A DNA stretch of 64,000 bases from Aridibaculum aurantiacum (GTDB taxonomy: Bacteria > Bacteroidota > Bacteroidia > Chitinophagales > Chitinophagaceae), in contig NZ_JAFEWC010000003.1 of NCBI RefSeq assembly GCF_017355875.1, positions 811,001 through 875,000 on the forward strand, in the 5' to 3' direction. Of the stretch, positions 18,036-41,938 are shown piece by piece. A program made the translations under genes and the position numbers. The stretch's first letter is position 1; the number at the start of each line of letters is the position of its first letter. The notes beneath the pieces are model-generated. The model ran no database searches. It worked only from the letters and a program-made list of their open reading frames with translations, and was not told the origin of the DNA.

Positions 18036-18194
18036 TCATCCTCAACATTTCACCTGCTTTACTTGATGGTGACAACTGTCAGCTTCATTTGTGTGAAACG
18101 GTGACAACAAGTGGTTTTGCCTTTCAGGATTATAAATTTCTTTGTACGGACCAGTTTTGGCTGGTTACTGCTGTTGAAGTATATTTAATAGTCT

Positions 18195-18226
18195 CACATG
18201 TAAATGTGATGTACAACCCACTTTTG
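18195..18226 (+). promoter_or_regulatory. Dyad TCACAT-N4-ATGTGA before the TPR lipoprotein gene
   Basis: A perfect 6+6 dyad (TCACAT 18194-18199, ATGTGA 18204-18209) lies 40 nt before the start codon at 18250. A -7-like box, CACTTTTG at 18219-18226 (7 of 8 to TAnnTTTG), follows 10 nt after the 5+5 core. The same dyad precedes four other genes of the window. Here the spacing to the -7 box is shorter than at the others (24 nt), so it may act as an operator rather than an activator site, or another promoter is used. Confidence 0.5.
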
Positions 18227-18249
18227 TTTAACCTTAAAACAAGCTCCAT

Positions 18250-18918
18250 ATGAAGCCATTTATTACTCTCTCTGTTGTTATTGGTTTACTTGCATCCTGT
18301 GTTTCCCCTCAAGAGAAAGCCGCAAAAGCTTACGATGAAGGCGTGGCACTTGCTAAACAGGCTGAAGCCACCAAGGAAAAAGGTGATGCGCAAGCTGCAT
18401 TAGCACTAAGCAAACAATCTCTCGACAAGCTGAACGAAGCTAAGCAGCATGATTCCACGCATGCAGGACTGCATACTGCAATGGCGCACAGTTATTTTGT
18501 AGCTGGACAACATGCTGAAGCAATGAGCCAATATAAAATAGCAAACGCTAAAGAAGGCGAGAAAGCAGCGAATTATCGCGAAATGGGGCTAATCAAATTA
18601 ATCCAGGGCGAGTTGAGCGAAGGTCACGATCTGCTGGATAAAGCCGTTGCACTTGATCATTCTAAAGACATGATTGATGAGATCAATAAAGGTGTGGTAC
18701 AAGTAGGAGAAAAGAGCTTTCAGAATGGAGAGGAAGTAAAAGCTAAAGGTGATAAGGAAACAGCTAAAAAACACTACAGCTATGCAATGAATGTTATGAT
18801 GCTTGCATACTATTACGACAACAACAGGAAAGATGTAGCAGAGAAGATTGCAAAATATGCAGATGAATATGGAGATTATACTATTAAGGTTCAATATACA
18901 AAGCTGAGCCAGCAGTAA
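18250..18918 (+). CDS. TPR-type lipoprotein
   Basis: 222 residues. Lipoprotein signal MKPFITLSVVIGLLASC with the lipidated Cys at 17. The mature protein is helical, with tetratricopeptide-like repeats (AGLHTAMAHSYFVAGQHAEAMSQY at about 76-99 and following units) and many Ala/Lys residues. It should be anchored in the periplasmic or outer-membrane face and act as a scaffold. Its promoter carries the shared dyad, tying it to the receptor, regulator and kinase genes below. Confidence 0.75.
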   Translation: MKPFITLSVVIGLLASCVSPQEKAAKAYDEGVALAKQAEATKEKGDAQAALALSKQSLDKLNEAKQHDSTHAGLHTAMAHSYFVAGQHAEAMSQYKIANAKEGEKAANYREMGLIKLIQGELSEGHDLLDKAVALDHSKDMIDEINKGVVQVGEKSFQNGEEVKAKGDKETAKKHYSYAMNVMMLAYYYDNNRKDVAEKIAKYADEYGDYTIKVQYTKLSQQ

Positions 18919-18948
18919 GCATATTCTTTACTTATTTACTAAAATGAA

Positions 18949-18972
18949 AGAAGCCCCAGGAATGGGGCTTCT
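18949..18972 (+). terminator. Probable terminator, possibly two-way
   Basis: Ten-bp stem 18949-18958 with 18963-18972 and a GGAA loop follow the TPR gene by 30 nt and precede the end of the convergent small gene. T-runs on both sides are weak. Confidence 0.6.
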
Positions 18973-18993
18973 TGTATAAGTGGAAAACAATGT

Positions 18994-19179
18994 CTAAAAA
19001 TTGAATTTACTGGTGAGCGTCCAGGCGTTTATTTCTTCTGTAGTCTTGGTTTTCTTAACCTGCTTAACTACCTCCTCTTTTTTTTCTGTCGTAGAGCAGG
19101 CAACCGAGCAGCAATTGGTTTGTTTGGAAGTTAAAACCAGGATAACCAGTGGCGCAATCATCTTAAGTAAAGTTTTCAT
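18994..19179 (-). CDS. Small exported Cys-containing peptide
   Basis: 61 residues from the ATG at 19179 (the frame is open to 19200). It has a hydrophobic signal MKTLLKMIAPLVILVL, then TSKQTNCCSVACST and a Lys/Glu/Thr-rich tail. The Cys cluster after the signal could be a lipobox variant or a disulfide/metal site. No family recognised. The well-formed promoter upstream (TTG-N20-TACTTTTG with the abutting dyad) supports that it is a real gene belonging with the receptor and regulator genes. Confidence 0.6.
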   Translation of the reverse strand: MKTLLKMIAPLVILVLTSKQTNCCSVACSTTEKKEEVVKQVKKTKTTEEINAWTLTSKFNF

Positions 19180-19197
19180 AACCAGTTGTTGATGAAG

Positions 19198-19243
19198 CAA
19201 AAGTAATGTGACAGTGATGTGTGTACAATCACATAAATGGGTG
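19198..19243 (-). promoter_or_regulatory. Promoter with abutting dyad for the small exported peptide
   Basis: On the minus strand: -7 box TACTTTTG (19205-19198), a perfect match to TAnnTTTG, 20 nt below a TTG. Directly above that TTG is the dyad half CACAT at 19230-19234, with a degenerate partner (GGGTG, 19239-19243). The dyad-to--7 gap is 24 nt, the same as at the receptor and regulator genes. The -7 box is 18 nt from the ATG. Confidence 0.6.
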
Positions 19244-19274
19244 AAAAAGGTGAACCGGATTGTTCTGAAACTAA

Positions 19275-19309
19275 AAGTTCCACAGCCTCTTATAAGAGAT
19301 GTGGAACTT
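19275..19309 (-). terminator. Terminator of the outer-membrane receptor gene
   Basis: Ten-bp stem 19275-19284 with 19300-19309, topped by the palindrome CTCTTATAAGAG, lies 62 nt after the receptor stop on the minus strand; a short TTTT follows. Confidence 0.7.
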
Positions 19310-19371
19310 AAATCAACACTACACCTATGATCTGGAACTGCTTTTTTGAGTGTGTTTCTTTCTAGGAGGAA

Positions 19372-21810
19372 CTAGCCGCCGATCCTGTTTTGTTCCTCCA
19401 TTGCGCTACCGGTACTTCTTTTCTTTTGTGCGAATGTTTTACCAAACCTGTAGGTGAAAGAAAGTGATGTTACCCTGTTGTCCCACTGGCTATTGATGGT
19501 TGCATCTACGGTTGAGAACTTAGTGTAACCATTGTATTTCTGAATATAGAATGGGTCGCGAACGTTAAGCGTGATCTTTCCTTTGTTCTGTAAAACTGAT
19601 TTTGATGCGGCCAGGTTGAAAACTCCCATTGATCCGCTTCTGGATACTCCCTCAGCACTTCTTGTATTGTACCAGCCATTGATTTCTGCATCCCAGCCCT
19701 TTTGTAGTTTGAACTGCAGTGCTGCATAAAAATTAGCTGATATTGCTTTGTTATCTACATCTGTTTCACCTACACGTCCTTTAAAGCTGTTGTGAAAAAC
19801 AATATTGTTTGATACTACTGTCAGCCATTTATTAAGCGGCTTGTTGATGTTTACAGCAAGTCCAAATTGCTTCAGCGATGCAATGTTCTTTTTTATCAAT
19901 GTCACTTCTCTTGTGCCTGGCGTTGGTTCTACTACTTCAGAAATGGCATTGTCTACCTGTGTATAATGAAGTGTGGTGGTAATAGCATTTTTGTAGCTAT
20001 GACTGAACTCTATATTGTGGCTAAACTGCGGCTGCAGGTATGGATTACCTTGTTGTGATGTATACTGGTCAATGATAAAGATGAACGGGTTCAGATCGCG
20101 GTACTGCGGCCTGGTAATCCTGCGGCCATAGTTCAAGTTGAAATTGTTCTTATCATTTGCGGCATAGCTGAAATACACGGTTGGAAACAATTTGCCATAC
20201 TTATTGGTGAAGGTTGAGTTTCTTGTAACTGAGCGGCCACGGCCATGAGTATATTCATAACGTAAACCTGTTTGTACACTTAGCTTTTTACTAAGCGGCG
20301 TATTGAAGTTTACATAGCCTGCGTATACATTTTCCTGGTAAATAAAATGGTTGCTACGCTTTACATCCAACACCGAGTTGCCATAATAGATAGTGTCGAA
20401 CCTGATGTCGTTATCGCTGTTTACATAACTCACCTTTCCGCCTACTTCCAATTTTGATTTGTTGCTAAACGGCTTGCTGAAATCGATCTTAGCAGCATAT
20501 ACATCGAAGCCTGTAGGTAAGTATCCAAAAATAGTATCTGCTTTGCCTAATGGAGTGTGGTTGCCATCAAAGAAGCTATTGTAAAATCTTTGTTTGTGTT
20601 TGTCATTATAACTAATATAGTCTGCATCAAACACCAGCTCAGTTCCGGCACTATCCAATTTGTGTGTAAGGTTTAAGTTACTCCTGATGTTGGTAACATT
20701 TGGTATCATGTGGGTGCGACCATAGTTCACCGTTTGCAGGTCACCTACACGATCAAATATTTCGTTCACACTTTGTGCATTGTAATCCATTTTAGTATTG
20801 AAAGCAGTTACAGATGCTGAGGCTGATGTATTTTTAGAAAAATCATAGTCGATACCAATCTTGCCATTCATTGAATTTCTTGTCTCTGGCATAAATGTTC
20901 GTTGGCGGAAGATGAAATCTATAGCATTGGTTTGCTTATTCAGGATATTTCTCGACACCGAAAACTCCTGGAAGTTACCACGATATGCATAGTTGCCTGA
21001 AGTATACAAATTGAATTTCTTGTTGCGGTAGTTCAGGTTATAGCCGCCATTTACTTTAGGATAAACACCTTGTCCATAGCTGGCATTCACACTGCCATTG
21101 ATACCTACGGTTCTGCTTTTCTTTGTTTTTATATTGATGATACCTGAGTTGCCTGCTGCATCATACTTAGCAGGAGGATTGGTCATTATCTCTATCTGAT
21201 CCAGTTCTGATGCCGTCATGCCTTTTAGCATATTCGCCAGGTCAGAACCACTGATGAAGCTAGGTTTTCCATCAATATATACTTGCACGCCTTGCTTGCC
21301 TTTCAGGCTGATGTTTCCTTCTCTGTCTACTGTTACGCCTGGTGCTTTTTCCAACACCTCTAATGCTGTACTTCCTGCATTGGAAGGAGCTGCCTCTACA
21401 TTCACCACCATTTTATCGGCTTTCATTTCTACATATGGCTTGCGTGCAGTAACTACTACATCAGCTAGTTTTTTTGTTTGCTGCTGCAGTTCTATAGTAG
21501 GAAGCTCTACATCTTTATCAGCTACAGTAAAAGGATTACTTGATTGTTCCTGCACACCAACACCAGTCAACTTTACCAGGTATACCCCAGGTGTAACGTT
21601 AGTAAACATGAACCCGCCTTGTTTGTTGGTGATCTCGATCTTAACTACAGAATAGTCTGCAGCTTTAAGTAACGTAACAGAGATGTTCTCTATTCCTGTG
21701 CCTTTGCTTAATCCTCTACCTGATACTTTATAGCTGCCTGTCTGAGCATTTGCTATATAGCTGTTAGCGCTCATAACCAGCACCAGGAGAATTGCAATTA
21801 GCTTTTTCAT
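19372..21810 (-). CDS. Outer-membrane beta-barrel receptor (OMP_b-brl_3 type)
   Basis: 812 residues. Signal peptide to about 22, then a carboxypeptidase-regulatory-like beta-sandwich (about 25-115, KVSGRGLSKGTGIENISVTLL), then a plug (VVVTARKPYVEMKADKMVVNV, TALEVLEKAPGVTVDREGNISLKGKQGVQVYIDGKPSF, MTNPPAKYDAAGNSGIINIKTKK) and a barrel to the end. This is the layout of the Bacteroidota outer-membrane barrel family related to TonB-dependent receptors. The ligand is unknown. It has its own promoter with the shared dyad and lies immediately below the LuxR-type regulator gene. Confidence 0.9.
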   Translation of the reverse strand: MKKLIAILLVLVMSANSYIANAQTGSYKVSGRGLSKGTGIENISVTLLKAADYSVVKIEITNKQGGFMFTNVTPGVYLVKLTGVGVQEQSSNPFTVADKDVELPTIELQQQTKKLADVVVTARKPYVEMKADKMVVNVEAAPSNAGSTALEVLEKAPGVTVDREGNISLKGKQGVQVYIDGKPSFISGSDLANMLKGMTASELDQIEIMTNPPAKYDAAGNSGIINIKTKKSRTVGINGSVNASYGQGVYPKVNGGYNLNYRNKKFNLYTSGNYAYRGNFQEFSVSRNILNKQTNAIDFIFRQRTFMPETRNSMNGKIGIDYDFSKNTSASASVTAFNTKMDYNAQSVNEIFDRVGDLQTVNYGRTHMIPNVTNIRSNLNLTHKLDSAGTELVFDADYISYNDKHKQRFYNSFFDGNHTPLGKADTIFGYLPTGFDVYAAKIDFSKPFSNKSKLEVGGKVSYVNSDNDIRFDTIYYGNSVLDVKRSNHFIYQENVYAGYVNFNTPLSKKLSVQTGLRYEYTHGRGRSVTRNSTFTNKYGKLFPTVYFSYAANDKNNFNLNYGRRITRPQYRDLNPFIFIIDQYTSQQGNPYLQPQFSHNIEFSHSYKNAITTTLHYTQVDNAISEVVEPTPGTREVTLIKKNIASLKQFGLAVNINKPLNKWLTVVSNNIVFHNSFKGRVGETDVDNKAISANFYAALQFKLQKGWDAEINGWYNTRSAEGVSRSGSMGVFNLAASKSVLQNKGKITLNVRDPFYIQKYNGYTKFSTVDATINSQWDNRVTSLSFTYRFGKTFAQKKRSTGSAMEEQNRIGG

Positions 21811-21835
21811 TTTGTGTATTTTTTGCTTTGTAACG

Positions 21836-21881
21836 CAAATGTGGGCGATAGGTAACAGGCGTTCAATAGCATAACTATGTG
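21836..21881 (-). promoter_or_regulatory. Promoter with abutting dyad for the receptor gene
   Basis: Minus strand: -7 box CACATTTG (21843-21836, 7 of 8), TTG 20 nt above it, and directly above this the dyad AGCAT-N4-ATGTG (plus-strand reading, 21868-21881; 8 of 10 to the consensus). The gap between dyad and -7 box is 24 nt. Confidence 0.6.
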
Positions 21882-21921
21882 ACTTGGTATGTGCGGTAAA
21901 TGATGGGTATGAAGGGCAATA

Positions 21922-21949
21922 AAAAAGGACCGCTGTTGCGGTCCTTTTT
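21922..21949 (-). terminator. Strong terminator of the response-regulator gene
   Basis: Twelve-bp perfect stem 21922-21933 with 21938-21949, loop TGTT, T-run on the minus strand, 17 nt after the stop at 21967. Confidence 0.92.
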
Positions 21950-21966
21950 CAGAATGTGATAAACGG

Positions 21967-22599
21967 TTATACAAGTTTATCCTTGAAAGCTTTTGCTACT
22001 GCTTCACTTTTACTATTCACATGTAGCTTCTCGTATATCTTCTTTATATGACTACGCACTGTATCAATAGCTATATACATTTCAGCAGCAATCATCTTGT
22101 AACTATAGCCATCAACCAATAATTGTAACACTTGTTTTTCACGATCGCTCAGGTTGTAGTCTTCACCTTTTTCATTGTTCATGGCAGAAAACATCTTGAG
22201 CACCTGCGTAGCAATAGATGCGGTCATAGGTGCACCACCTGTTTGTGCTTCAGCAATGTATTCTAACAAACGTGCTGGCGGTGTTTTCTTTAATATATAT
22301 CCATTGGCGCCATTGCTTATGGCTTCAAATACATTTTTATTATCATCAAATACAGTAAGCATTAAAATCTTCACATCTGTATTTACAGCTCGTATTTTCT
22401 TTAATCCTTCAATGCCGTTTACAATAGGCATATCTATATCCATTAAAATGACATCTGGTTGGTAAGCCTCTACTTCGGCTACTACGTTCTCGCAGTTTTT
22501 AAAAGCAGCCAGCACTTCAAATCCATCTGAACCATTTATCAGCATAGTTAACCCTTCGCGCAGTTGAGGATTGTCTTCGTACAAAACGAGCTTGATCAT
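21967..22599 (-). CDS. LuxR/NarL-type response regulator
   Basis: 210 residues from the ATG at 22599 (the frame is open to 22647). Receiver domain with acidic pocket (YEDN at 7-10), phosphoacceptor D54 in ILMDIDMP, Thr in LMLTVFDD and Lys in ILKKTPP. C-terminal LuxR helix-turn-helix: LSDREKQVLQLLVDGYS and IAAEMYIAIDTVRSHIKKIYEKL. No kinase is adjacent; the only HisKA_3-type kinase in the window, the usual partner class, is at 38.8-41.9 kb and shares its upstream dyad. It probably regulates itself and the receptor. Confidence 0.92.
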   Translation of the reverse strand: MIKLVLYEDNPQLREGLTMLINGSDGFEVLAAFKNCENVVAEVEAYQPDVILMDIDMPIVNGIEGLKKIRAVNTDVKILMLTVFDDNKNVFEAISNGANGYILKKTPPARLLEYIAEAQTGGAPMTASIATQVLKMFSAMNNEKGEDYNLSDREKQVLQLLVDGYSYKMIAAEMYIAIDTVRSHIKKIYEKLHVNSKSEAVAKAFKDKLV

Positions 22600-22617
22600 A
22601 AGCAATAAATATTTTAG

Positions 22618-22663
22618 CAAATGTAACACGCTGTCAGGTGGCAGCAAATCACATAAGTATGTT
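22618..22663 (-). promoter_or_regulatory. Promoter with abutting dyad for the response-regulator gene
   Basis: Minus strand: -7 box TACATTTG (22625-22618), a perfect match, TTTG 19 nt above it, and directly above this the dyad CACAT-N4-ATGTT (22650-22663, 9 of 10). The gap between dyad and -7 box is 24 nt and from -7 box to ATG 18 nt, as at the small exported peptide gene. The dyad centre would lie near -44, a class-II activator position. Confidence 0.65.
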
Positions 22664-22816
22664 AGGAGAATGAACCAGTTATGACAGAAAAGAATTATAT
22701 GCGACCATTAGGAAGCTGATCCTGTACAAACAAAACTAAAACAGCGCCGATTGGAGGATCAAGGATTAACATATCCGGCATGGTATGAAATATGAATCAT
22801 CCTATGAAAAAACTTT

Positions 22817-23245
22817 ATGGAAAACATGCTTCCTGATACAGATATCACACTTGAGCATTCTACACCTGTGGAAAAAAGTATCCAGCACAACCTGAATGAA
22901 TATTACCAGCAACAAGAAGCAATAGAGCGCCGCTTACTTGAACTGGACAATGAATGGGACCTGGAGCGGGTGTTGTTTTTATTATCATCCTCTGTTACTA
23001 TACCATCGCTTTTACTTTCGCTAAAGCAGAGCCAGAAGTGGCTTATTCTGCCAGCTATACTTTCAGGCGCTATGCTCAGTCATGCCATCACCAACTGGTG
23101 TCCGCCTACACCACTTCTTAAAAGAATGGGTTTTAGAAGCAGGGTAGAGATAGAAAAAGAGCGCTATGCATTAAAAGCTTTACGAGGCGATTTTCGTGAT
23201 ATGTTGGATGTACCAAATTCAGTTTGGAATGCGGTGAATAAGTAA
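22817..23245 (+). CDS. Small DUF2892-like membrane protein
   Basis: 142 residues: a hydrophilic N-terminal half with a coiled-coil-like stretch (LNEYYQQQEAIERRLLELDNEWDLER) and a helical membrane hairpin (about 53-66 and 73-95) followed by NWCPPTPLLKRMGFR and EIEKERYALKALRGDF. The hairpin plus CPP/LLKRMG pattern resembles YgaP-type DUF2892 domains. Function unknown. It is divergent from the response-regulator gene. Confidence 0.65.
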   Translation: MENMLPDTDITLEHSTPVEKSIQHNLNEYYQQQEAIERRLLELDNEWDLERVLFLLSSSVTIPSLLLSLKQSQKWLILPAILSGAMLSHAITNWCPPTPLLKRMGFRSRVEIEKERYALKALRGDFRDMLDVPNSVWNAVNK

Positions 23246-23365
23246 GGCAGCTCCACTGCACGTCTTATGCGTTATGCCTTGTTTATTTAGATTTGCACAT
23301 CATATTCAATGTAAATAATATGGCATGCTTATTATGCTGAAGATGATGATTCAACTAAACAAACA

Positions 23366-23833
23366 ATGAAATTAACTGCTATGAAAAGAAGACTTGTCTT
23401 GTGGGTAGCCATTGGGCTGTTTGCCCTGCCTGCCAATGTATTTGCCGTTTCAGGTTCTGTAGACATTGCTGAAGCCGCTAAAGAAGTAACGCATGAGCCT
23501 GCAATTGGTTCCATTCAGCAGGCAATGAAAGATTTCAGGGAGTTATCCCGCAAAGAAAAGAAGTCTAAGATCAAGCAGATGAAAGCTGCTATCAAAGATT
23601 ACAAAAAGCAAAAAGCAGCAGGTGATGCAGATGTGAACATGCTCCTGTTGGTTTTGCTTGCTATCCTGATACCACCATTAGCAGTGTACCTGCACGAAGG
23701 TGAGATCAACACCAAGTTTTGGATATCATTGTTGCTAACCATTCTTGGTTTCGCTCTTTTTGGTTCGTTTGGTGCTATTTTCTTAGGATCATTATTAGGT
23801 ATCATTTATGCCTTGATCGTAGTTCTGTCTTAA
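23366..23833 (+). CDS. YqaE/Pmp3-family membrane protein with long N-terminus
   Basis: 155 residues (an ATG at 23381 is an alternative start). A signal peptide (to about FAVSG), a charged linker (REKKSKIKQMKAAIKDYKKQK) and a C-terminal Pmp3 domain (about 93-155): LLLVLLAILIPPLAVYLHEGEINTKFW then LLLTILGFALFGSFGAIFLGSLLGIIYALIV. Pmp3 proteins are small stress-linked membrane proteins; the exported N-terminal region is an addition seen in Bacteroidota. A perfect -7 box TAGATTTG stands at 23288-23295. Confidence 0.85.
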   Translation: MKLTAMKRRLVLWVAIGLFALPANVFAVSGSVDIAEAAKEVTHEPAIGSIQQAMKDFRELSRKEKKSKIKQMKAAIKDYKKQKAAGDADVNMLLLVLLAILIPPLAVYLHEGEINTKFWISLLLTILGFALFGSFGAIFLGSLLGIIYALIVVLS

Positions 23834-23857
23834 GCACCATTATCATAAGAAATAAAA

Positions 23858-23880
23858 AGACCCGCTGAAAAAGCGGGTCT
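23858..23880 (+). terminator. Intrinsic terminator
   Basis: Nine-bp stem 23858-23866 with 23872-23880, A-rich loop, 24 nt after the Pmp3-family gene; it can also serve the convergent small gene. Confidence 0.8.
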
Positions 23881-23902
23881 TATATGTTTAAGAAAGTTCT
23901 TT

Positions 23903-24055
23903 TTATAACAGGTCCATTGCTTTTGCAAAAAACGTTACAACCAATGGAAGCAATAGCCAGAAATATTCGGCTTTAAAGATCAACATCAGTATCATTCCTA
24001 TGAGCGATAAAAAGAAGTAAAGCCAATATTTGCCGGTAGATTTAGTTGTTTCCAT
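23903..24055 (-). CDS. Small two-helix membrane protein (50 aa)
   Basis: 50 residues from the ATG at 24055 (the frame is open to 24100). Two hydrophobic helices (YWLYFFLSLIGMILMLIF and FWLLLPLVVTFFAKAM) fill nearly the whole chain. It is convergent with the Pmp3-family gene. No family recognised; composition and length support a real small membrane protein. Confidence 0.55.
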   Translation of the reverse strand: METTKSTGKYWLYFFLSLIGMILMLIFKAEYFWLLLPLVVTFFAKAMDLL

Positions 24056-24176
24056 GAATAAAATTTTGGGCAAAAATAGGCCTTGCTGTTTTTCATCCAA
24101 ATAAATTGTTTTGATAGTGTATTAATTACACTATTGATATGTTTAGAGTATTTTCGCCATCTAAAAACCTACTACT

Positions 24177-27100
24177 TTGAGTATTGATGCAAACATTCCA
24201 GGAGAAGAGAAGAATCAACCAGTAGATAATGGTGCTGCAGGTAATGAAACCGGTGCAACAAAAGGATCTGGAAAGCCTTCTGTTAAGCGCAATAATAAGG
24301 GTACAGAACCCTTACCGGCTGCAGCAGAACAAGCTAATGATACAACTTCAAACGTAGCTGAGGGTTCTTCTAACGAGGTGCCCCAGAAAAAAGAAAAAAT
24401 AAAAGCCGCACCTAAAAAAGCTGCAGCTAAACCCACGCCTCCTTCTACGGAAGAAACTCCGGTTGCGAATACTGTGGCCGCTATACCTACGGCTCCTGAA
24501 GCGGTAGAAACGGTGCCGGTTGCAAAAAAAGCTGCCGTTAAATCTACCTCATCAAAAGCACCAGCAGAAGCGCCGGTACCAAAAAAAGCTGCTCCTAAAA
24601 AAGCAACTATAACGCCTGAGCCGGTAAAGGAAGAGGTGAAGCTTGCCGTGAAAAAAGCGACAAAGAAAGTAGAAGAGTCAAATGATAAAAAGCCTACTGG
24701 TAAGGCTGCTAAACCAACTGCTGAACCTGCCCGCCCTGCAGCTAAAAAGCGTTCTGCTCCAGCAGCTCCACAGGTTACTGCAGAAGCAGGTACAACTACA
24801 TCACCAACAGTAAACCAGGAAAATGTTAAAGGGTTGCGCAGGATCGTATTCCAGTTGAGGTTCTATACGCATCACGGACAGTCGCTTTCAGTTTCTGGTA
24901 ATCATCCACTGCTCGGTAATGGTGATCCTGAAAAAGCATTCCCATTACAATTCTTAGACAGGGACAACTGGTATGGCATCTTAGAAGTTCCCGCAGGAGA
25001 AGTGCTTGAGCAGCCTATTAGCTATAATTATTTACTTCATGAAGCTGGTAATACTACTGCTGAATGGGGTGCAGATAAATTGCTTAATCCTACCAATTAT
25101 GATGTAGAAGAAGTATTATTGATAGATAGCTGGAACGACTCCTCTTTCATCGAAAATAGTTTTTATACAGAGCCTTTCAAGCAGGTTTTACTGCGTGAAA
25201 ATTTTACACCTTATACCGCTGACGAGCCAGCTACGTATACACATCTTTTCAGGGTAAAAGCTCCATTGCTGAAGCAAGGGCAGGTAATGTGCCTGCTCGG
25301 TTCCGGACCACAACTGGGAGAGTGGAATGAAGCGCAACCCATACTGATGCAACGAGAAGATGGCGAAGATTACTTCCAGGTAAAGCTTGACCTCACGGGG
25401 ATATCTTTTCCTATCGTGTACAAGTACGGAGTTTACGACCTGAATAATTGGCGTTTTGTACGGTATGAGGATGGCAATAACCGGATCATCTTTGATAATA
25501 TATCTCCTAAAAAACTTACAGTAGTTTCAGATGGATTTGCTGTCCTTCCAAACAATGGTTTCAGAGGTGCTGGTGTAGCAATACCTGTTTTCAGCCTTCG
25601 TAGCCATAACAGCTTTGGCGTAGGTGAATTTAATGATATGAAGCTATTGGTAGACTGGGCAAAGCAGGTAGGACTGAAGCTGGTGCAAATACTTCCGGTA
25701 AACGATACAACTGCTACGCATACCAGTGCCGATAGTTATCCCTATGCTGCTATTTCAGCCTTTGCATTGCATCCGCAATATTTACATATACCTGCTGTCA
25801 TAAGAAATGCAGATTCTTCTATTCTTTCTGAAGTGGAAGATCAGCGGATCTACCTGCAGCAACAGGAGAATATAGATTATGAAGGAGTGATGGCTTTGAA
25901 ATGGAGACTGCTTCGCCAGATATTCCCTGCAGAAAAAGAAGAAACCTTTGGCAGCGATAATTTCAATTCCTTCTTCCAGTCAAACAAACATTGGCTGGTG
26001 CCTTACGCAGCTTTTAGTTATTTCAGGGATCAGAATGGCACAGCTGATTTTAGCACGTGGACAAGCCACAGCAGTTACAATGAACAGGAGGTAAGCCAGC
26101 TTGCTGGAGATCCTACCACCGCACCGGATGATGTTGCTATTCATTATTTTATACAATATCATCTTCACTTGCAATTGCAAGCTGCAGCAGCGTATGCACA
26201 TGCAAATGGAATAATTGTAAAAGGAGACATTCCGATTGGTATCTATCGCAATAGCTGCGATGCATGGCAGCAGCCTGAACTGTACAACATGGAAATGCAG
26301 GCTGGTGCACCTCCCGATGATTTTGCTGTAAAAGGCCAGAACTGGGGTTTTCCAACATACAATTGGCAGAGGATGCAGCAGGATGGCTTCAACTGGTGGA
26401 AGCTACGCTTCGAACAGATGAGCTACTATTTTGATGCATTCAGGATTGATCATATCCTAGGCTTTTTCAGGATATGGAGTATTCCAATGCATGCTGTAGA
26501 AGGTATATTAGGACATTTTGTTCCTGCCTTACCTATACATATAAATGAATTGGTAGAAAGAGGTATTCATGTAGATAAGCAACGTTTTGTTCAGCCATAC
26601 ATCACTGATGAGATCCTGGACGAAATCTTCGGTAACGAACAATATTGGATCAAAGATGAGTTTCTGCAGGTAAAAGGAAATGGTGAATACCTGCTGAAGG
26701 AGCAGTACAATACGCAGCGGAAAATTGAAGACCTTTTTAATACGTATGAAAAGAACCCGCATAACCTGTTCCTGAAGTTGGGCCTATTCGATCTTATTTC
26801 AAATGTGTTGATGTTCGAGGTAGAAGGTTCAGGAGGCCAGCAGTTCCACTTCCGTATTTCTATGGAAGATACCCGTTCTTTCCAGGCGCTGGATCTGCAT
26901 ACACAGCAGCAGCTGCGTGAGCTTTACATCAACTACTTCTACCGCAGGCAAGACAATTTCTGGGAAAGGGAAGCCATGCAGAAGCTGCCTGAATTGAAGC
27001 GAAGCACCAACATGCTTATTTGTGGCGAGGATCTTGGAATGGTACCTGATTGTGTTCCCGGAGTAATGAAGCGCCTGAGCATTCTCAGCCTCGAAATCCA

Positions 27101-27542: not shown

Positions 27543-27565
27543 ATTGATTTCACATTTTCATTCAT

Positions 27566-31205: not shown

Positions 31206-31209
31206 AAAC

Positions 31210-32934: not shown

Positions 32935-32955
32935 TTGCAATAAAAGTTATAGCGT

Positions 32956-34084: not shown

Positions 34085-34101
34085 ATTGTATCAACCCAAT
34101 C

Positions 34102-34662: not shown

Positions 34663-34680
34663 AGTTGATCTTTATGATGA

Positions 34681-34869
34681 TTAACCTAAAGAACGGATCC
34701 AAGCCACAACCTCGTCTTTAGTTTTGCCAAGCTTCTGCTGCAGCCTGCCAAACAGCTCATCATCTTTACCTTCTTCGTAACGCAGATCATCGTCAGTAAG
34801 ATCTCCATGTTCTTGCTTGATCTTACCCTTGAGTTCATTCCATTTTCCTTTTAATTCTAACTTATCCAT
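34681..34869 (-). CDS. CsbD-family stress protein
   Basis: 62 residues: [29 protein letters not shown] fits the CsbD signature (repeated WNELKGKIK helices). CsbD-like proteins are small, general-stress-induced and of unknown activity. It lies 18 nt after the cupin gene and near the Hsp20 gene, consistent with a stress neighbourhood. Confidence 0.9.
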
Positions 34870-34993
34870 AGTAGTAGTTTAAGCAAAAGGAACAAAAAAA
34901 TGATGCCATTGAAATGAGTGCTGGCATGATAGAATATTCAGTCAATGATGCAGTTATGGTTAACAATATTCTTGTAAATCAAGCTTTAAATAA

Positions 34994-35021
34994 AAAATTA
35001 AGGGCTGGAAAACCAGCCCTT
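34994..35021 (-). terminator. Terminator of the Hsp20 gene
   Basis: Nine-bp stem 35000-35008 with 35013-35021, loop AAAA, T-run (minus strand) 34994-34999; the stop of the Hsp20 gene at 35028 is 6 nt away. Confidence 0.9.
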
Positions 35022-35027
35022 GTAAGC

Positions 35028-35480
35028 TTAAGAAATGTTGATGAGGCGAGCAGGTTTCTGCTTCACTTCTTCCTTCTTTGGAATGGAAAGTCTTAGTACG
35101 CCATTCTCATATTTCGCTATGATATTCTCACTGTCCACCACGTCCTTAGAAAGTGTAAAGCTGCGCTGGAACGACTGGTAACTAAACTCCTTCCTGGTAT
35201 ATTTTTCACCTTCCTTCTCTTCGTGCTCTTTCTTCATCTCGCTGCTAATGGTCAGAATGTTGTTGTCCAGTTCTACTTTAAAATCTTCTTTGTTCATTCC
35301 GGGAGCAGCCATTTCCACTTCAAAAGTATCTGCAGTTTCTTTTACATTCACCGCAGGAACAGTGGTGTTGGTGTTTGAGAAATTAGATGACCTCCAGTCG
35401 AACAAGTCTCTAGTAAAGAAGTCATCAAACAAAGATGGCATGCTGTGAGCCATGTTGCCGTTTCTTTTCATGAGTGTCAT
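35028..35480 (-). CDS. Hsp20/alpha-crystallin small heat-shock protein
   Basis: 150 residues from the ATG at 35480, which has a clear AAGGAGG 4 nt upstream (unusual in this genome); the frame is open to 35570. The N-terminal arm (SLFDDFFTRDLFDW) precedes the alpha-crystallin domain (about 45-145: VKETADTFEVEMAAPGMNKEDFKVELDNNILTISS) with the closing GVLRLSIPKKE motif and a C-terminal ARLINIS. ATP-independent holdase chaperone. Confidence 0.95.
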   Translation of the reverse strand: MTLMKRNGNMAHSMPSLFDDFFTRDLFDWRSSNFSNTNTTVPAVNVKETADTFEVEMAAPGMNKEDFKVELDNNILTISSEMKKEHEEKEGEKYTRKEFSYQSFQRSFTLSKDVVDSENIIAKYENGVLRLSIPKKEEVKQKPARLINIS

Positions 35481-35718
35481 AATGCCTCCTTTTTTAGTAG
35501 TTAATTTTAGAATTTTCAACACCAGTAAATCAAGCAAAATGCCAGCGCAGCATAACTGAAATATTTTCATTTTCTAAATGAAGAAGCTGTAAAATTTTCA
35601 AGTTTATGCTGCAGTTTTTGCAGCCTGTTTTTACTGTAGTGCCTTCATTAACAGCGGGTTTACTACATCATTTTTTCTATAATGGCATGAAAGTTTTAAT
35701 GCTGATTTAAACATCATT

Positions 35719-36222
35719 ATGAAAAACTTTTTAATTGTTGCAGCCCTTGGAGGAACAGTATTATGGGGTTGTAAAGATGCTACCGGTGAATTTGTTGATC
35801 TTAATTCAGGACAAAAAATCACTGTTGAAAAAGACCAGGAAAAAGGTTACATGGTAAATGCTGATACACGCAAAGCAGTGTATTTATATGTAGATCCTGA
35901 AACGCGTGATACATTTTATGGAAGAACAGGAAGGGTGGTAAACAACAATATTACACGCGATGGTAGCGGCATGTTTAGGTATACAGGCGATGAAGATTAT
36001 GTATATAAAAATGGTGATTATAAAGTAAAAGCGGAAGCCGACGGTGATCTAAAAGTGAAGGATGGCGACTACAAATTGAAAGTAGATGAGGACGGCGATA
36101 TGAAAGTTAAGGATGGTGACTATAAGAAAAAAGTAGAAGCCGATGGAGATATGAAAATTAAGGATGGTGATACAAAAGTAAAAGTGGACGATGGAAAGGT
36201 GAAGGTGAAAAAGGATGACTAG
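35719..36222 (+). CDS. Lipoprotein with 17-residue Lys/Asp tandem repeats
   Basis: 167 residues. Lipobox VLWGC with Cys at 18. After a small domain (about 20-96) come tandem repeats of 17 residues from residue 98: NGDYKVKAEADGDLKVK, DGDYKLKVDEDGDMKVK, DGDYKKKVEADGDMKIK and a shortened last unit to residue 167. In DNA this is a 51-bp repeat from 36010 to 36222. The alternating D-G-D and K-x-K pattern suggests a surface-exposed, possibly ion-binding repeat. No family recognised. Confidence 0.75.
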   Translation: MKNFLIVAALGGTVLWGCKDATGEFVDLNSGQKITVEKDQEKGYMVNADTRKAVYLYVDPETRDTFYGRTGRVVNNNITRDGSGMFRYTGDEDYVYKNGDYKVKAEADGDLKVKDGDYKLKVDEDGDMKVKDGDYKKKVEADGDMKIKDGDTKVKVDDGKVKVKKDD

Positions 36223-36244
36223 TTTTTCTGTTGTTATTTGATAT

Positions 36245-36270
36245 AAGGCTGCTTCAAACAAAGCAGCCTT
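36245..36270. terminator. Two-way terminator
   Basis: Ten-bp stem 36245-36254 with 36261-36270, loop CAAACA, between the convergent lipoprotein and MATE genes. Confidence 0.75.
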
Positions 36271-36275
36271 TGTTG

Positions 36276-37598
36276 TTATTGCAATTTTGTTTTATGAAGA
36301 AATCTTGCATTAAGTAGTACAGAAGAAATCGTTAGCCCGCAAACAAATCCTAACCATATACCTGCAGCTTCTAATTTCAAGTGGAAGGCTAATAAATAAC
36401 CTACCGGTATACCAATAATCCAATAGGCAATGGCTACATAAATGGTAGGCATGGTCACATCTTTTATTCCGCGCAATAGACCTACGCCTATAGCCTGTGT
36501 AGCATCAGAGATCTGGAATAAGGCAGCATAAATAAGCAGGGAAGACGCTACCATAGCCACATTGTTGTCGTTGGTAAAAAAGCCCGGTAGAACATTCTGC
36601 AGCAGTATAAATAACAATGCGCAGATGGTTCCATAACCAAGGCCGCCTGCTATGGTGCTTTTGCCAATGTTTCGTAAGCCAATTTTATCGTACCTGCCAA
36701 AGGCATTTGCTACTCTTATAGAGCCAGCCAGAGATAAACCCAGTGCAGCCATGAAAGTAGTAGAAGCTAGGTTCAGCGCTATCTGGTGTGCGGCCTGTGC
36801 AGTGGCACCTAACCAGCCTATCATGATTCCTGAAACTGAAAAGGCACCTGCTTCCATACCGTACTGAAGACTGCTTGGCACTCCCAGGTTTAGCAGTTCT
36901 TTCCAAAGTTTTTTATTAAGCTTCCATGCCTGGTGCCGCACTTGTATATAAGGCCTGAAAGTGCGATGCTTCAGGATAATAATGATCAGTAGTACAGCAA
37001 TCAGAATACGTGTGATAAGTGTAGCTATACCTGCTCCATAGAGCTCCAGTCTTGGGACACCAAATTGGCCATAGATAAAGATCCAGTTTAGAAAAGCATT
37101 GAGCGGTAACGATAAGATGGAAAGGATCATTGCTGTCCTGGTGAATTCAAGTGCATCCGCAAATTGTTTTACGGCTATATAGATCATCATCGGGATGAGA
37201 GACCAAGCCATCACCACATAATAATCACGAGCAAAAAAAGCGACTTCTGCATCTTGTCCTAAATGAAAAAGCATACGCTGCCCTAACACCATTCCAATAG
37301 CTATGATACAGGCAGCTATAGTAGAAAGTAAAACACCATTGTATACCACCCGCGATGCTGTATGAATATCTTTCCTTCCATTGGCCATGGCCACTAATGG
37401 TGATATAGCCATGGTAATACCAATACCAAATACCTGCGGTATCGCCAGCACATTTATCACCAGCGAAGATGCAGCCAGCTGCCGGTAATCAATAGCACCA
37501 ATCATTGCACTATCTATCAGTCCCAGTCCTACCTGCGACAGGTTGCCAATAATGATAGGCCCTGCGATCTTCAAGGTGTTATTAAATTCTTTCCACAT
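36276..37598 (-). CDS. MATE-family efflux transporter
   Basis: 440 residues from the ATG at 37598. Twelve helices with the MATE repeats: GPIIIGNLSQVGLGLIDSAMIGAIDYRQLAASSLV near the N-terminus and GVPSSLQYGMEAGAFSVSGIMIGWLGATAQAAHQIALN (about 243-280) at the start of the second half. It exports cationic drugs or metabolites in exchange for H+ or Na+. No regulator or partner beside it. Confidence 0.95.
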   Translation of the reverse strand: MWKEFNNTLKIAGPIIIGNLSQVGLGLIDSAMIGAIDYRQLAASSLVINVLAIPQVFGIGITMAISPLVAMANGRKDIHTASRVVYNGVLLSTIAACIIAIGMVLGQRMLFHLGQDAEVAFFARDYYVVMAWSLIPMMIYIAVKQFADALEFTRTAMILSILSLPLNAFLNWIFIYGQFGVPRLELYGAGIATLITRILIAVLLIIIILKHRTFRPYIQVRHQAWKLNKKLWKELLNLGVPSSLQYGMEAGAFSVSGIMIGWLGATAQAAHQIALNLASTTFMAALGLSLAGSIRVANAFGRYDKIGLRNIGKSTIAGGLGYGTICALLFILLQNVLPGFFTNDNNVAMVASSLLIYAALFQISDATQAIGVGLLRGIKDVTMPTIYVAIAYWIIGIPVGYLLAFHLKLEAAGIWLGFVCGLTISSVLLNARFLHKTKLQ

Positions 37599-37651
37599 GG
37601 GTGGCAAAAGTAACGGTTCGTGCTGTCATTAGCATCGGGAAGAGGAAGTCT

Positions 37652-38704
37652 TTAGAAACCTCTGCCACCAGTAGCTATTCTATAAAAACGTGGGAATGCT
37701 GCTCGTAATAGTGCACCAACACCCATGCAGATAAACAACACCAACACAGGAACAACCAGGTAGGTGAGTAGCCGGTAGTAGGCAAATCCTTTTACGTACA
37801 AGAAAGCAAGACGCGTTAGATAGTGTGTGAGTGGAACGTGAAGCGCATAAATGATAAAAGCAAAAGATACTGACCACAGAAACCATCTTTTGTGCATAAA
37901 AAATTTCACCAGTGCATCGCCTCCAAACCAGATAACGATGATGCCGGAAACTACACTAACCAGGTGCAGCGTCGTAAGAATATAGCGGGTTTCAATATGG
38001 TCTGGCTCCAGCTCAAAAGCCATAAAAGTTTTGATGATACTAATCCCGATAAAGAATAACCATCCAAGAAAATGGCTGAACCATTCAGGCTTTTTTTCTA
38101 TTGGAAATTCGGTTTTGCAGATCCATATGCCAAGGGTAAAAAAGAAGATTCCCTGCGCTTCTAAAAACAAAAAAGTAGTCATAGAGTACCAACCTATGAA
38201 TGCTATGGAGAACCATATAACAGGATATTTGGTAACTGCCCACCTGAAAAATGGGTATAGCAGGTTGTAGAAAAACAAACTCCTGATAAACCACAGCTGG
38301 AAGGATGGAGGACGGTATATAAACCGAATGAACAGCTGCTCCCATGTCATTTCGCTATACGGCCTGTTATCCCCCAGTTGATCGAGTTGTGCATCGTAAA
38401 CAGCTTGTGCCGTTACCGGGTGCTGCTGCCATAAATAAGTAATCAACATGCCTACGGCACTCCAGATAAAGAAAGGAATGATTAGCGTGTTGAACCGCTT
38501 TGCAATTCTTTGCGCATAGGGTTTATTATCCTGCAAGGCATATATATAGCCCGATATGATAAACAAGAGTGGAATGCGAAAACGTAAAGCACCATTGGCT
38601 AAAAAGTATTCGATGAAAGTGGTAAAAGTCAGTCGCTCCTTTACCAGGCTATAAGGCGTGAGGTATGTTTCATTTAAGTTGTAGCCATGCACAAACAATA
38701 GCAA
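37652..38704 (-). CDS. Acyltransferase-3 family membrane protein; true start uncertain
   Basis: The given frame starts at a TTG (38704) in the middle of helix 1. It continues, open, to a TAA at 38783-38785, and the upstream part reads KPEIQVLFFSLIALLLFVHG, a proper first helix with the conserved His. There is no in-frame ATG or GTG, so a non-standard start or a start-codon change must be assumed. At least ten helices, including NGALRFRIPLLFIISGY, follow. The family transfers O-acyl groups to sugars or lipids. It stands 12-90 nt after the propeller-kinase gene and may share its transcript. Confidence 0.7.
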   Translation of the reverse strand: MLLFVHGYNLNETYLTPYSLVKERLTFTTFIEYFLANGALRFRIPLLFIISGYIYALQDNKPYAQRIAKRFNTLIIPFFIWSAVGMLITYLWQQHPVTAQAVYDAQLDQLGDNRPYSEMTWEQLFIRFIYRPPSFQLWFIRSLFFYNLLYPFFRWAVTKYPVIWFSIAFIGWYSMTTFLFLEAQGIFFFTLGIWICKTEFPIEKKPEWFSHFLGWLFFIGISIIKTFMAFELEPDHIETRYILTTLHLVSVVSGIIVIWFGGDALVKFFMHKRWFLWSVSFAFIIYALHVPLTHYLTRLAFLYVKGFAYYRLLTYLVVPVLVLFICMGVGALLRAAFPRFYRIATGGRGF

Positions 38705-38796
38705 TGCTATAAGAGAAAAGAATAAAACCTGAATTTCTGGCTTAAGAAACGGTTCATATTTATAGTTCCGGGGGTTGTTAGTTTAATCGGAAACGG

Positions 38797-41700
38797 CTAT
38801 TGTAATGGCATAACCAATTTCACGGTTGTTCCTTCTCCAGGTGATGATTTAATATTGATCTTGCCGTTCACATTGTCAGCTCGCTTCTGCATATTTCCAA
38901 GGCCATTTCCACCATCTGCATCCTTTACCACAAAGCCTCTTCCATCATCTTTTACCAATAATGCCAGCTTGTTATTTTCTAGTGTAACATGAACAGTAAC
39001 CTTACCGGCTTTACTATATTTCGCAGCATTGTTCACAGCTTCTTTAAAAATGAGGAAGAAATCGCGACGTGCTTCCATATTCAGTTTCACCTCGTATACC
39101 TGGTCGTCGATCATAAAATCCATGTCCATTTCTTTTGCTTCCAATACATTGGTAGCAAACTCACGCATGCGTGCCGTTATCTTCTGCATGCTGTCATTGG
39201 TTGGTTTTATACTCCAAACAATATCATCCATAGCCTCCATCATCCGCTGGCTGTTGTCGCTTATTTTGGTTATGTATTCACTGGTTTTAACAGTGTCGGT
39301 GGCTATTTTACTTTTAGCCATCGAGCTAAGAATGTTAATGGTGCTAAGGGTACTACCCATATCGTCGTGAAGATCGCGGGCCACACGTGTTCGTATTTTT
39401 TCTACAGCCAGCAGCTTGTTTACACGTAAATCGTGTATGGCGTAAATCAACAAGATAATGGTGAATAGAATGGAGCTATAAAACCACCAGGTTCTCCAGA
39501 ACGGCGAACGAACAAAGATTTGCATCGTGGTAATTTCTTGTGAACGCATGCCTTCAATGTTTTCGCAAAAGACCTTAAAAGTGTACCTGCCGGGCGGTAA
39601 CTGCGAATAGTTTACGTAGTACGATCTGTCTGCTTTTACCCACTGCTTGTCCAGTCCTTCCATTTTGTAATAGTAGGTAAGCTTGTCGCGCTGCCGGTAG
39701 CTGAGTGAAGCAAAATAGATGCTGATCGAATTCTGGTCGTGCGCTAGCTTAACCTCGTTCAATTGAAGTAAAGAGTCAACAGGCACAAACGTGTTGAATA
39801 ACTTAAAGTCAGTAATAGAAACAGTAGGAGGAGGTTGAGTGCTGGTAAATATCTCCGGGTCAAAAAATAAGACAGCATTATTGCCAGCAAAGATCAATTG
39901 GTTCTTACTCGTTACATAATCTGCAGATGAGGTTTGTTCAGCCATTACAATCCCATCTTTTCTGCCATACGGTGTAATGCGCCTGTTGTTGGGATTGTAC
40001 CTGCACAATCCATTTGCAGTTACTACCCATAAGTACCCTTTGAAGTCGGTCCGTATCCTTTTAACTGTATTAGATGGAAGACCATCTTCATACGACAGTA
40101 CTTCTACCTTGCCTGTTATTTTATTGATGAAGTTTAAAGCACCTGCACCAAAAACAATGGTGCTGTCATTGAGTAATTCAACGTCGTTGCCTGTATTGCT
40201 GTACAATTTATTTTCACCGGTTCCATGGGTGTAATGCTGCAGTGTATTTCCTGTGGCAGGGTCAACAGCCATCAATCCTTTTTCGTGAGTAGCAAGCCAC
40301 AGCCATCCTTGTTTATCTACCAGTACTTTGTAGATGATGGTGCCGATCTCCTTTTTTACACTGAACTCTTTACCGTTCCAGCTTATCAGGCGGCCGCCCT
40401 GTGTACTAAACCAGATGGTTCCTTTTTTATCTTGTACTATATAACGGATGGTGCTTTGGTTGAATTCCGGCGGTGCCAGGTATTCAGTAGAATTTTTAGC
40501 CGGATCATGTACTACCAGTACGCCACCATTGCAACCGATCCAAATTTTACCGGTGCTGCTTTCGCGGCACATATTCCATGTAAGCAGCGTATTATTTACT
40601 TCTGCAGGTGTCCATGATTTTGGTGGCTTTTGCCGGTAAATATCATGCTGCTTTTTCTTCATGGTTTTATCTATCACTCGTACTCCCTGCCCCCATGATG
40701 TGAACCAGTAATCACCATTTGGCATCTCCAGTATATCTGTCAGGTTAGTGGCTTCAGCCTGGTTGCTGAATATGAGGTTGATAACAGAAAAGAAGCCTGA
40801 ACCATACGAAGTATAGAATAATCCTTTGTCGGTGGCCAACCATAAACTTCCATCTTTGTCTTCCACTATCTGGTTCACTACATCGTACTGTATGTTGATG
40901 CCATTGTTGTCTGTAGTGCTCCTGTTGAAGAAAAACCTCTTTGAATTGTTGTCGTAATTCAGCAAGACTTTCAAGCCATAGATCCACAGGTTTCCGCCAC
41001 TTGTTTCTAAGAATTTGTGATATTCTGTGTATTCACCCGTATGGAAGTTCAGGCCCAACGTATCGTTTGCAAGGAATTTACCGGTGCTGTCAAAAACCAA
41101 TTTCTTTTGTCCGCCACCGCCCCATACTTGCCATCCAAACACCCATATCCTTCTCTGCTTGTCAATAAAGATCTCGGTTGTATTATCTCCTAATAATGGA
41201 TGTTCTAATAAAGGAAGCTTCTGAGGGTTATTGAGCTTTGACCACATTTGCTTGCTGCGCCTGTCGTACACGCATAGCCCGTTCTGCGTAGTAAACCATA
41301 CTTGTTGCTTTACCGGGTCGTCGTGTACACCGGCTACACTTGGCAGCCATCCTGGAGGAAAATCAAATGGATGATCATCTACAAATTCCTGTGTCCGCTT
41401 ATTATAACGAAGTACTCCATAGCGCAGCACGTTCACATATATCTCGCCGGTAGAACTTTTCCATAACCGGAACTCTGCGCGGGGTGGTAGTGCGGTAGCG
41501 GTTTTAAGTGGAATTATTTTAAATGTAAAATCTGCAGGATTAAAAATTCCAAACTCACGCCTGGCTGACATAGCAAGGAAAAGCTTTCCGCTATCGGCGG
41601 GAATTATTTGCGAAATATCTGTATTAGGTAGCCTGTCTACACTTTTCCTCGACTCGGTAAATTGTATGAATTTACTGCCGTCAAATCGTTGCAGCCCATT

Positions 41701-41868
41701 GGCTGTACCTACCCATATAAAACCTTTTTCATCCTGGTATAAGCTCGAGACAACATTGCTGGCTAGTCCCAATCCATCGTCGGTAGTAATTTGTGTAAAT
41801 GCAAAACCCTGCTGTGCGTAGCAAGCCTGGGTTAAGAGTGTTAGGAGTATAATGAAGATGCCTCTCAT
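38797..41868 (-). CDS. Two-component-propeller sensor histidine kinase (HisKA_3)
   Basis: 1023 residues. A signal peptide (to about 19) and a periplasmic array of Reg_prop beta-propeller repeats (for example GFIWVGTANGLQRFDG, DGSLWLATDKGLFYTS, GWLWLATHEKGLM) are followed by a Y_Y_Y domain (about 690-765), one membrane helix (about 785-805), HisKA_3 with H834 in ARDLHDDMGSTLS, and a HATPase_c domain (NNAAKYSKAG, DDGRGF, GLGNM). Unlike the hybrid type it carries no receiver or AraC part, so its partner must be a separate, normally LuxR-type, regulator. Ligand unknown, presumably sensed outside by the propeller. Confidence 0.93.
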   Translation of the reverse strand: MRGIFIILLTLLTQACYAQQGFAFTQITTDDGLGLASNVVSSLYQDEKGFIWVGTANGLQRFDGSKFIQFTESRKSVDRLPNTDISQIIPADSGKLFLAMSARREFGIFNPADFTFKIIPLKTATALPPRAEFRLWKSSTGEIYVNVLRYGVLRYNKRTQEFVDDHPFDFPPGWLPSVAGVHDDPVKQQVWFTTQNGLCVYDRRSKQMWSKLNNPQKLPLLEHPLLGDNTTEIFIDKQRRIWVFGWQVWGGGGQKKLVFDSTGKFLANDTLGLNFHTGEYTEYHKFLETSGGNLWIYGLKVLLNYDNNSKRFFFNRSTTDNNGINIQYDVVNQIVEDKDGSLWLATDKGLFYTSYGSGFFSVINLIFSNQAEATNLTDILEMPNGDYWFTSWGQGVRVIDKTMKKKQHDIYRQKPPKSWTPAEVNNTLLTWNMCRESSTGKIWIGCNGGVLVVHDPAKNSTEYLAPPEFNQSTIRYIVQDKKGTIWFSTQGGRLISWNGKEFSVKKEIGTIIYKVLVDKQGWLWLATHEKGLMAVDPATGNTLQHYTHGTGENKLYSNTGNDVELLNDSTIVFGAGALNFINKITGKVEVLSYEDGLPSNTVKRIRTDFKGYLWVVTANGLCRYNPNNRRITPYGRKDGIVMAEQTSSADYVTSKNQLIFAGNNAVLFFDPEIFTSTQPPPTVSITDFKLFNTFVPVDSLLQLNEVKLAHDQNSISIYFASLSYRQRDKLTYYYKMEGLDKQWVKADRSYYVNYSQLPPGRYTFKVFCENIEGMRSQEITTMQIFVRSPFWRTWWFYSSILFTIILLIYAIHDLRVNKLLAVEKIRTRVARDLHDDMGSTLSTINILSSMAKSKIATDTVKTSEYITKISDNSQRMMEAMDDIVWSIKPTNDSMQKITARMREFATNVLEAKEMDMDFMIDDQVYEVKLNMEARRDFFLIFKEAVNNAAKYSKAGKVTVHVTLENNKLALLVKDDGRGFVVKDADGGNGLGNMQKRADNVNGKINIKSSPGEGTTVKLVMPLQ

Positions 41869-41878
41869 GTAGGGGGTA

Positions 41879-41938
41879 CAAATCTAATACTTGAACGTGG
41901 TAAATATTTTTTGCATCACCAAATCACATCTTTATGTG
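41879..41938 (-). promoter_or_regulatory. Promoter with dyad for the propeller-kinase gene
   Basis: Minus strand: -7 box TAGATTTG (41886-41879), a perfect match, 10 nt before the ATG. The dyad CACAT-N4-ATGTG (41925-41938), perfect over the ten core bases, is followed at once by ATTTG as at the regulator gene. The gap to the -7 box is 38 nt here, 14 nt more than at the three best sites, so the promoter geometry differs. Confidence 0.5.

Follow-up and report, generated by a model that had tools for sequence, protein, structure and literature searches.

To our knowledge, few operators have been described for LuxR-type regulators of the Bacteroidota, although no search was aimed at this point. 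Response regulators of the NarL/VraR type (PDB 1a04, 5hev) consist of a receiver domain and a GerE helix-turn-helix, and NarL binds 7-2-7 sites in which two inverted arms flank 2 bp. Hybrid two-component kinases of the Bacteroidota carry a Reg_prop and Y_Y_Y sensor part, and in the PhoP/PhoQ system the regulator controls its own genes plus a small membrane peptide. MgrB is described as a small feedback protein of PhoP/PhoQ (PMC2789325), and the consensus of sigma-ABfr promoters is given as TAnnTTTG at -7 and TTTG near -33 (PMC7366714). Here we analyze 64,000 nucleotides of Aridibaculum aurantiacum (Chitinophagaceae; contig NZ_JAFEWC010000003.1, positions 811,001 to 875,000; hereafter the window), in which a propeller sensor kinase and a NarL/LuxR-type regulator very probably form, to judge from sequence comparison, a two-component system that controls one autoregulated regulon through the dyad TCACAT-N4-ATGTGA. 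The kinds of component, namely a NarL-type regulator, a propeller kinase and a sigma-ABfr promoter, are already known. No description of the operator, its two promoter geometries, the regulon or the peptide class was found among the papers listed by searches of the open-licence literature.

The regulator has the NarL/FixJ arrangement of a receiver (PF00072, 7.5e-25) followed by a C-terminal GerE helix-turn-helix (PF00196, 3.3e-17), and its nearest solved structures, matched across the full length, are VraR (4.3e-29) and NarL (1.7e-28). Written as TCACATA-NN-TATGTGA, the dyad is laid out like a NarL site, but its arm sequence, its fixed spacing to a Bacteroidota -33/-7 promoter and its targets are different. 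The kinase has the sensor part of the hybrid propeller kinases, but no regulator is fused to it; a separate LuxR-type gene lies 16 kb away, so that the shared operator is their link in the window, whereas some relatives have the two genes about 60 nt (genome G011) or 1.7 to 1.8 kb (G003 and G013) apart. The likeness to PhoP/PhoQ-MgrB would be one of circuit, that of a regulator controlling its own genes and a small peptide, with both the control and the export predicted here from sequence. The peptides here diverge fast and often have an aromatic end. Both sigma-ABfr boxes (PMC7366714) occur at the class-A sites defined below, with a regulator dyad added at one of two fixed upstream distances.

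A sequence-only reading of the window had placed versions of the dyad upstream of five start codons and proposed one undescribed, probably autoregulated regulon. All five dyads are present (Table 1), with 0, 2, 2, 1 and 1 mismatches to TCACAT-N4-ATGTGA in the order 18194, 19229, 21867, 22649 and 41924. The dyad alone was dropped as evidence because it is too common in the window (seven matches at up to two mismatches against 3.72 expected, a number reached in 8 of 100 shuffles) and in the 4.86-Mb A. aurantiacum genome (17 matches at up to one mismatch against 12 for the reversed pattern). It is the promoter geometry, not the dyad alone, that carries the significance. At four promoters of the window, those of the regulator, the small peptide, the TonB-type receptor and a site at 42051, the dyad is accompanied by TTG (TTTG at the regulator) and by a [TC]AnnTTTG box that begins exactly 23 nt past the 16-mer dyad, a layout that we call class A. 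The earlier reading had given the shared spacing at 19.2, 21.9 and 22.6 kb as 24 nt from a 14-mer, which is the same distance, and had correctly put the -7 box 18 nt from the ATG of two genes, those of the small peptide and the regulator; the plus-strand dyad at 42051-42066, with complete class-A geometry, is a sixth site absent from its list. We scored these sites with a 47-bp composite model (dyad, TTG, spacer and TAnnTTTG) built on 110 strand hits in 80 related loci, with the window left out. These were the best 80 of 309 related loci (75 to 93% identity), led by a Segetibacter record and continuing with Sediminibacterium, Ferruginibacter, Lacibacter, Algoriphagus, Maribellus, Arenibacter and others; the record names span Chitinophagaceae, Cyclobacteriaceae, Prolixibacteraceae and Flavobacteriaceae. 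The four sites score from 23.1 to 33.4 and the next-best score in the window is 6.1, while in 40 resamplings of the window by a first-order Markov model no site scored 16 or more.

The distances between dyad and box fall into two classes. For 280 distinct dyads scoring at least 13 in the 80 loci, 95 of 125 TAnnTTTG boxes lie at 22 to 23 nt, 24 at 37 to 39 nt (class B) and 6 elsewhere (one at 9 nt, none at 10 nt); a reversed-box control gave 28 boxes at spread distances. With regulator promoters left out, 48 boxes remain at 22 to 23 nt and 22 at 37 to 39 nt. The 23-nt spacing holds for 63 of 74 matches at regulator promoters, and the longer spacing is typical of kinase promoters, in the flavour TCACATAAACATGTGGTTTT. 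The differing spacings of the dyads at the kinase and lipoprotein genes had been put down to possible chance in the sequence-only reading; this does not stand for the kinase, whose spacing belongs to the conserved longer class, but it may for the lipoprotein, where the one TTTTG box present, at 10 nt, fits no spacing class. Two other patterns were set aside: ATGTGA-N21-25-TAnnTTTG, with 5 matches against 3 for the control in the A. aurantiacum genome, was uninformative, and a dyad plus box at a gap of 20 to 50 nt, searched in 98 family genomes, was too loose, so that the fixed geometry was used instead. Because the two fixed spacings lie just upstream of the core promoter, activation is favored over repression. 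A repressor whose dyad beside the -33 element blocks RNA polymerase, with negative autoregulation, seems decidedly unlikely: the dyad does adjoin the -33 TTG, where steric exclusion is possible, but 119 of the 125 boxes keep to two activator-like spacings, whereas a repressor would allow varied positions. On these spacings, the regulator is most likely an activator of its own gene that works from two fixed positions.

The proposed regulon is further supported by the avoidance of genes by the dyad and by its conservation at the same promoters in relatives, the two points on which the sequence-only reading had said that it could fail. Only 10 of the 280 dyads lie inside open reading frames (ORFs) of at least 100 aa, although ORFs of that size make up 0.835 of the window and loci combined; in the A. 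aurantiacum genome, 6 of the 17 dyads at up to one mismatch do so. For counts at the regulator promoter and in its helix, one locus (L146) without upstream sequence was dropped, leaving 79. The helix TVRSHIKKIY[ED]K occurs in 77 of these. In 67 the strict core [AG]CA[TC]-N4-ATG[TC]G[AG] lies upstream of the regulator at a distance of up to 115 nt, and 11 more have a degenerate dyad. A dyad matching at least 9 of 12 positions is also found at the regulator promoter in each of the 10 genomes (A. aurantiacum included) whose ortholog is at least 79% identical, a set that is not independent of the 80 loci, since seven of the nine relatives are identical records. In two of the genomes (G004 and G006) both dyad arms are altered together, from CAC to CGC. 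Kinase orthologs (42 to 64% identity) are present in regulator-bearing genomes, and a member of the kinase family occurs in 68 of the 80 regulator loci; in one 88% complete genome (G008) only the kinase was found. Where the 5' end of the kinase gene is intact, the dyad precedes it in 9 of 11 cases, a count that includes A. aurantiacum and a second copy in G003; in L080 the 5' end is missing. One operator, kept in relatives, is found at both regulator and kinase promoters, as in an autoregulated two-component system.

The regulator is not a phylum-wide core gene, a possibility rejected on its presence in 10 of 98 family genomes (E<=1e-75) and 4 of 395 phylum genomes (E<=1e-80), and the sites follow its distribution. 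The composite pattern with up to three mismatches occurs 97 times against 13 for the reversed control in 10 regulator-positive genomes, and 21 times against 24 in 10 members of the family that lack a close regulator (Fisher p 1.5e-7); 8 of the 10 positive genomes belong to a single genus, and the 10 negatives were picked by the analyst. A stricter pattern with the outer bases left free gave 50 matches against 1 control in 195 family genomes; tallied by hand, the bases after ATG were [TC]G[AG] in 34, TAG in 5, CTA in 4 and other in 7. The 98 genomes represent one per genus, all lie within the 195 and were divided by regulator presence at E<=1e-75. By hand count, a match to the stricter pattern was found in 7 of 10 regulator-positive and 5 of 88 regulator-negative genomes (Fisher p 5.9e-6), and in 7 of 10 and 1 of 88 (G062) when the count was restricted to [TC]G[AG] or CTA sites (p 6.7e-8).

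Covariation between recognition helix and dyad, seen in three genomes only, is the best evidence that the regulator is the dyad reader. Three distant sister regulators whose helix has a Phe (VRFH, VRFH and VQFH) have dyads resembling CTACAT-N4-ATGTAG upstream (L027, L029 and L038). An exact search for CTACAT-N4-ATGTAG in these three genomes found six sites, two known beforehand and four new. In every case NAnnTTT[GA] follows at exactly 23 nt, on the side of a gene start 46 to 60 nt away, and TTG adjoins the dyad in four. Among four CTACAT sites in seven other genomes, none shows any of these features and two lie inside ORFs. Loci with a sister regulator or this dyad are L027, L029, L038, L275 and L277-L281. 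It is very improbable that some other co-occurring DNA-binding protein, for example of the CRP/FNR type, reads the dyad and has the regulator gene as one target. The TGTGA/TCACA half-sites recall the CRP consensus, but their order is reversed in the window sites (TCACA-N6-TGTGA against TGTGA-N6-TCACA), on which ground a CRP/FNR regulon was rejected; moreover, site enrichment tracks the presence of the regulator, and the outer bases of the dyad change with its recognition helix in the three genomes. That chance dyads merely stand beside common Bacteroidota promoter boxes, with no regulon, is scarcely credible, for although the dyad alone is mildly over-represented in the window and genome, geometry, conservation, co-occurrence and covariation all contradict it, and already do so for the regulator, kinase and peptide promoters.

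Several further observations weigh against a regulon read by this regulator. The peptide and TonB dyads of the window are weak by themselves, with position weight matrix scores of 9.3 and 8.4 (gene strand) against 14.0 for the lowest training site. Locus L145 has no credible regulator dyad (its degenerate match is certainly chance) and L140 keeps one half only; the kinase gene of G005 has no dyad, and that of G006 only a degenerate one. The A. aurantiacum genome itself has 13 composite matches against 3 for the control but none to the stricter pattern, while sites also occur in some genomes that lack a close regulator (E<=1e-75), such as G062 with two. In L026, a paralog of the regulator has RFH in its helix and lacks a CTACAT-type dyad. 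Finally, among 16 other TonB homologs, comprising a paralog in A. aurantiacum and relatives, none has a dyad within 140 nt that matches at more than 9 of 12 positions.

The sites, their geometry, their conservation, their co-occurrence with the regulator and, in a few cases, the covariation of helix and dyad support the two-component regulon in silico. We hypothesize that the kinase would pass phosphate to the regulator, which as a phosphorylated dimer would bind TCACAT-N4-ATGTGA, in the form YNACATNNTTATGTGATTG at regulator promoters. At class-A promoters the dyad would adjoin the -33 TTG and end 23 nt upstream of TAnnTTTG, with its centre near -41, an estimate based on the box, in a position like that of a class II activator; at class-B promoters, typically those of kinase genes, it would lie 37 to 39 nt upstream of the box, near -56 by the same kind of estimate. 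From these positions the regulator may activate its own gene and that of the kinase, along with genes for small exported peptides and envelope proteins, closing an autoregulatory loop. We speculate, from the cytochrome c, hemerythrin and outer-membrane targets, that the signal is envelope or redox stress. The analysis provides a readable operator with two promoter geometries of fixed spacing, proposes a kinase-regulator pair and lists candidate envelope targets across several Bacteroidota families. It enables regulon prediction from sequence, makes helix-to-base specificity testable by single substitutions and points to small exported peptides, outside any Pfam family, as a class.

Table 1. 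Genes, promoters and dyads of the candidate regulon, in window coordinates.
Feature	Coordinates	Strand	Basis or remark
Perfect dyad upstream of lipoprotein gene	18194..18209	+	Regulatory role without support from spacing
Lipoprotein, doubtful target	18250..18918	+	No homologs in 12 relatives
61-aa exported peptide gene, product ends LTSKFNF	18994..19179	-	ORF; no Pfam family
Small-peptide promoter: dyad 19229-19244, TTG, -7 box 19198-19205	19198..19244	-	Composite score 31.9
TonB-dependent-receptor-like outer-membrane beta-barrel protein	19372..21810	-	Pfam OMP_b-brl_3
TonB-receptor promoter: weak dyad 21867-21882, TTG, box CACATTTG	21836..21882	-	Composite score 23.1
NarL/LuxR-type response regulator, 210 aa, recognition helix TVRSHIKKIYEK	21967..22599	-	Pfam Response_reg and GerE
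Regulator promoter: dyad 22649-22664, 23 nt, -7 box 22618-22625	22618..22664	-	Composite score 33.4; conserved in relatives
Propeller sensor histidine kinase (Reg_prop, Y_Y_Y, HisKA_3, HATPase_c)	38797..41868	-	Pfam domains of a propeller kinase
Kinase promoter: dyad 41924-41939, 37 nt, -7 box TAGATTTG 41879-41886	41879..41939	-	Second spacing class, 37-39 nt
Sixth site: dyad 42051-42066, TTG, box CATTTTTG 42090-42097	42051..42097	+	Composite score 23.3
63-aa peptide (MRGKFITTNLKLAVLAGGKK...), family encoded near kinase family in relatives	42139..42330	+	Homologs in relatives
Cytochrome c lipoprotein	42593..43201	+	Pfam Cytochrom_C

Small peptides recur among the candidate targets. Class-A promoters precede 35 distinct ORFs of 51 to 95 aa with a hydrophobic N-terminus, which are predicted to be exported, and a class-A small ORF lies within 3 kb after the regulator in 29 of 78 loci, a few of these being spurious. 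None of the seven small peptides tested belongs to a Pfam family. A C-terminal F, W or Y is found in 17 of the 35 class-A peptides and in 80 of 761 control ORFs, a comparison in which related peptides are counted separately and the p value is inflated. In one relative (L092) a 61-aa peptide downstream of the regulator ends in LTSKFEF, close to the LTSKFNF of the window; other endings are HGEMLFRF, HSEILFRY and RFELW. The aromatic C-terminus is not shared by the Algoriphagus peptides or by the family of the 63-aa peptide. The 42051 site is divergent from the kinase and lies upstream of this peptide and the cytochrome c lipoprotein, which are probably in one operon. Homologs of the 63-aa peptide gave four locus matches but three organisms, since L093 and L243 are from one and the same; all four have an upstream dyad, which is of class A in three. 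The LAVLAGGK stretch of the 63-aa peptide resembles a double-glycine leader. The role of the peptides is most likely feedback or an envelope function. A more specific possibility, that these fast-diverging exported peptides of about 60 aa are controlled by the regulator and read by the propeller kinase as a feedback or cell-to-cell signal, with sister systems insulated by one helix residue and one dyad-arm base, seems unlikely; on that reading, the many ends in [FY]x[FY] or W would resemble the final strand of such a barrel in the outer membrane. The loci L268:1836-2423, L254:2803-2994, L262:2698-2892, L267:2724-2915 and L242:3446-3625 also encode exported peptides of this size, among them several whose C-terminus is aromatic (HSEILFRY, HGEMLFRF and similar), and G004 has two in tandem, each with its own class-A promoter.

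Families that recur downstream of dyads include the regulator, the kinase, cytochrome c, S41 peptidases, DUF2807 proteins and extracytoplasmic function sigma factors; the background rate, for other genes of at least 100 aa in the loci, is 94 of 974 with a dyad scoring 11 within 330 nt. The conservation of targets is partly circular, in that loci L242-L271 were taken because they carry a composite site and only L092-L171 are unbiased. Members of the cytochrome c family have an upstream dyad in 18 of 28 loci. The TonB receptor is not orthologous in close relatives (up to 45% identity), and we keep it as a target because its site fits class A and because regulator-near homologs in other genera carry dyads. 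These homologs, seven at 37 to 39% identity from about two lineages, all have a dyad scoring at least 11 within 330 nt, none of class A; an eighth (L245, from G003, 34% identity) is of class A and was fetched because of its site. Composite-pattern sites in A. aurantiacum, G003 and G009 precede orthologous OmpA genes (60% identity), and of two further OmpA homologs not picked for a site, one has it (L111) and one does not (L165). Other composite sites in the A. aurantiacum genome precede a hemerythrin, an outer-membrane barrel, a protein with a type IX secretion system tail and, at 212 nt, a START protein; some of these sites are chance, given 3 control to 13 matches.

As for the gene types named in the sequence-only reading, Pfam agrees on the regulator, the kinase and the TonB-type outer-membrane protein, but not on the "TPR" of the lipoprotein, which has no Pfam family at E<=0.001. 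The lipoprotein site at 18194 is a doubtful member of the regulon. A second hot spot of the A. aurantiacum genome (L237:1-4651, G000:C3:482500-489500) has three dyads between propeller-like and OmpA-family proteins. In Lacibacter (L127:12302-19437), a run of exported proteins, including beta-lactamase-fold, S41 and other proteins, lies downstream of the regulator, with a dyad before each.

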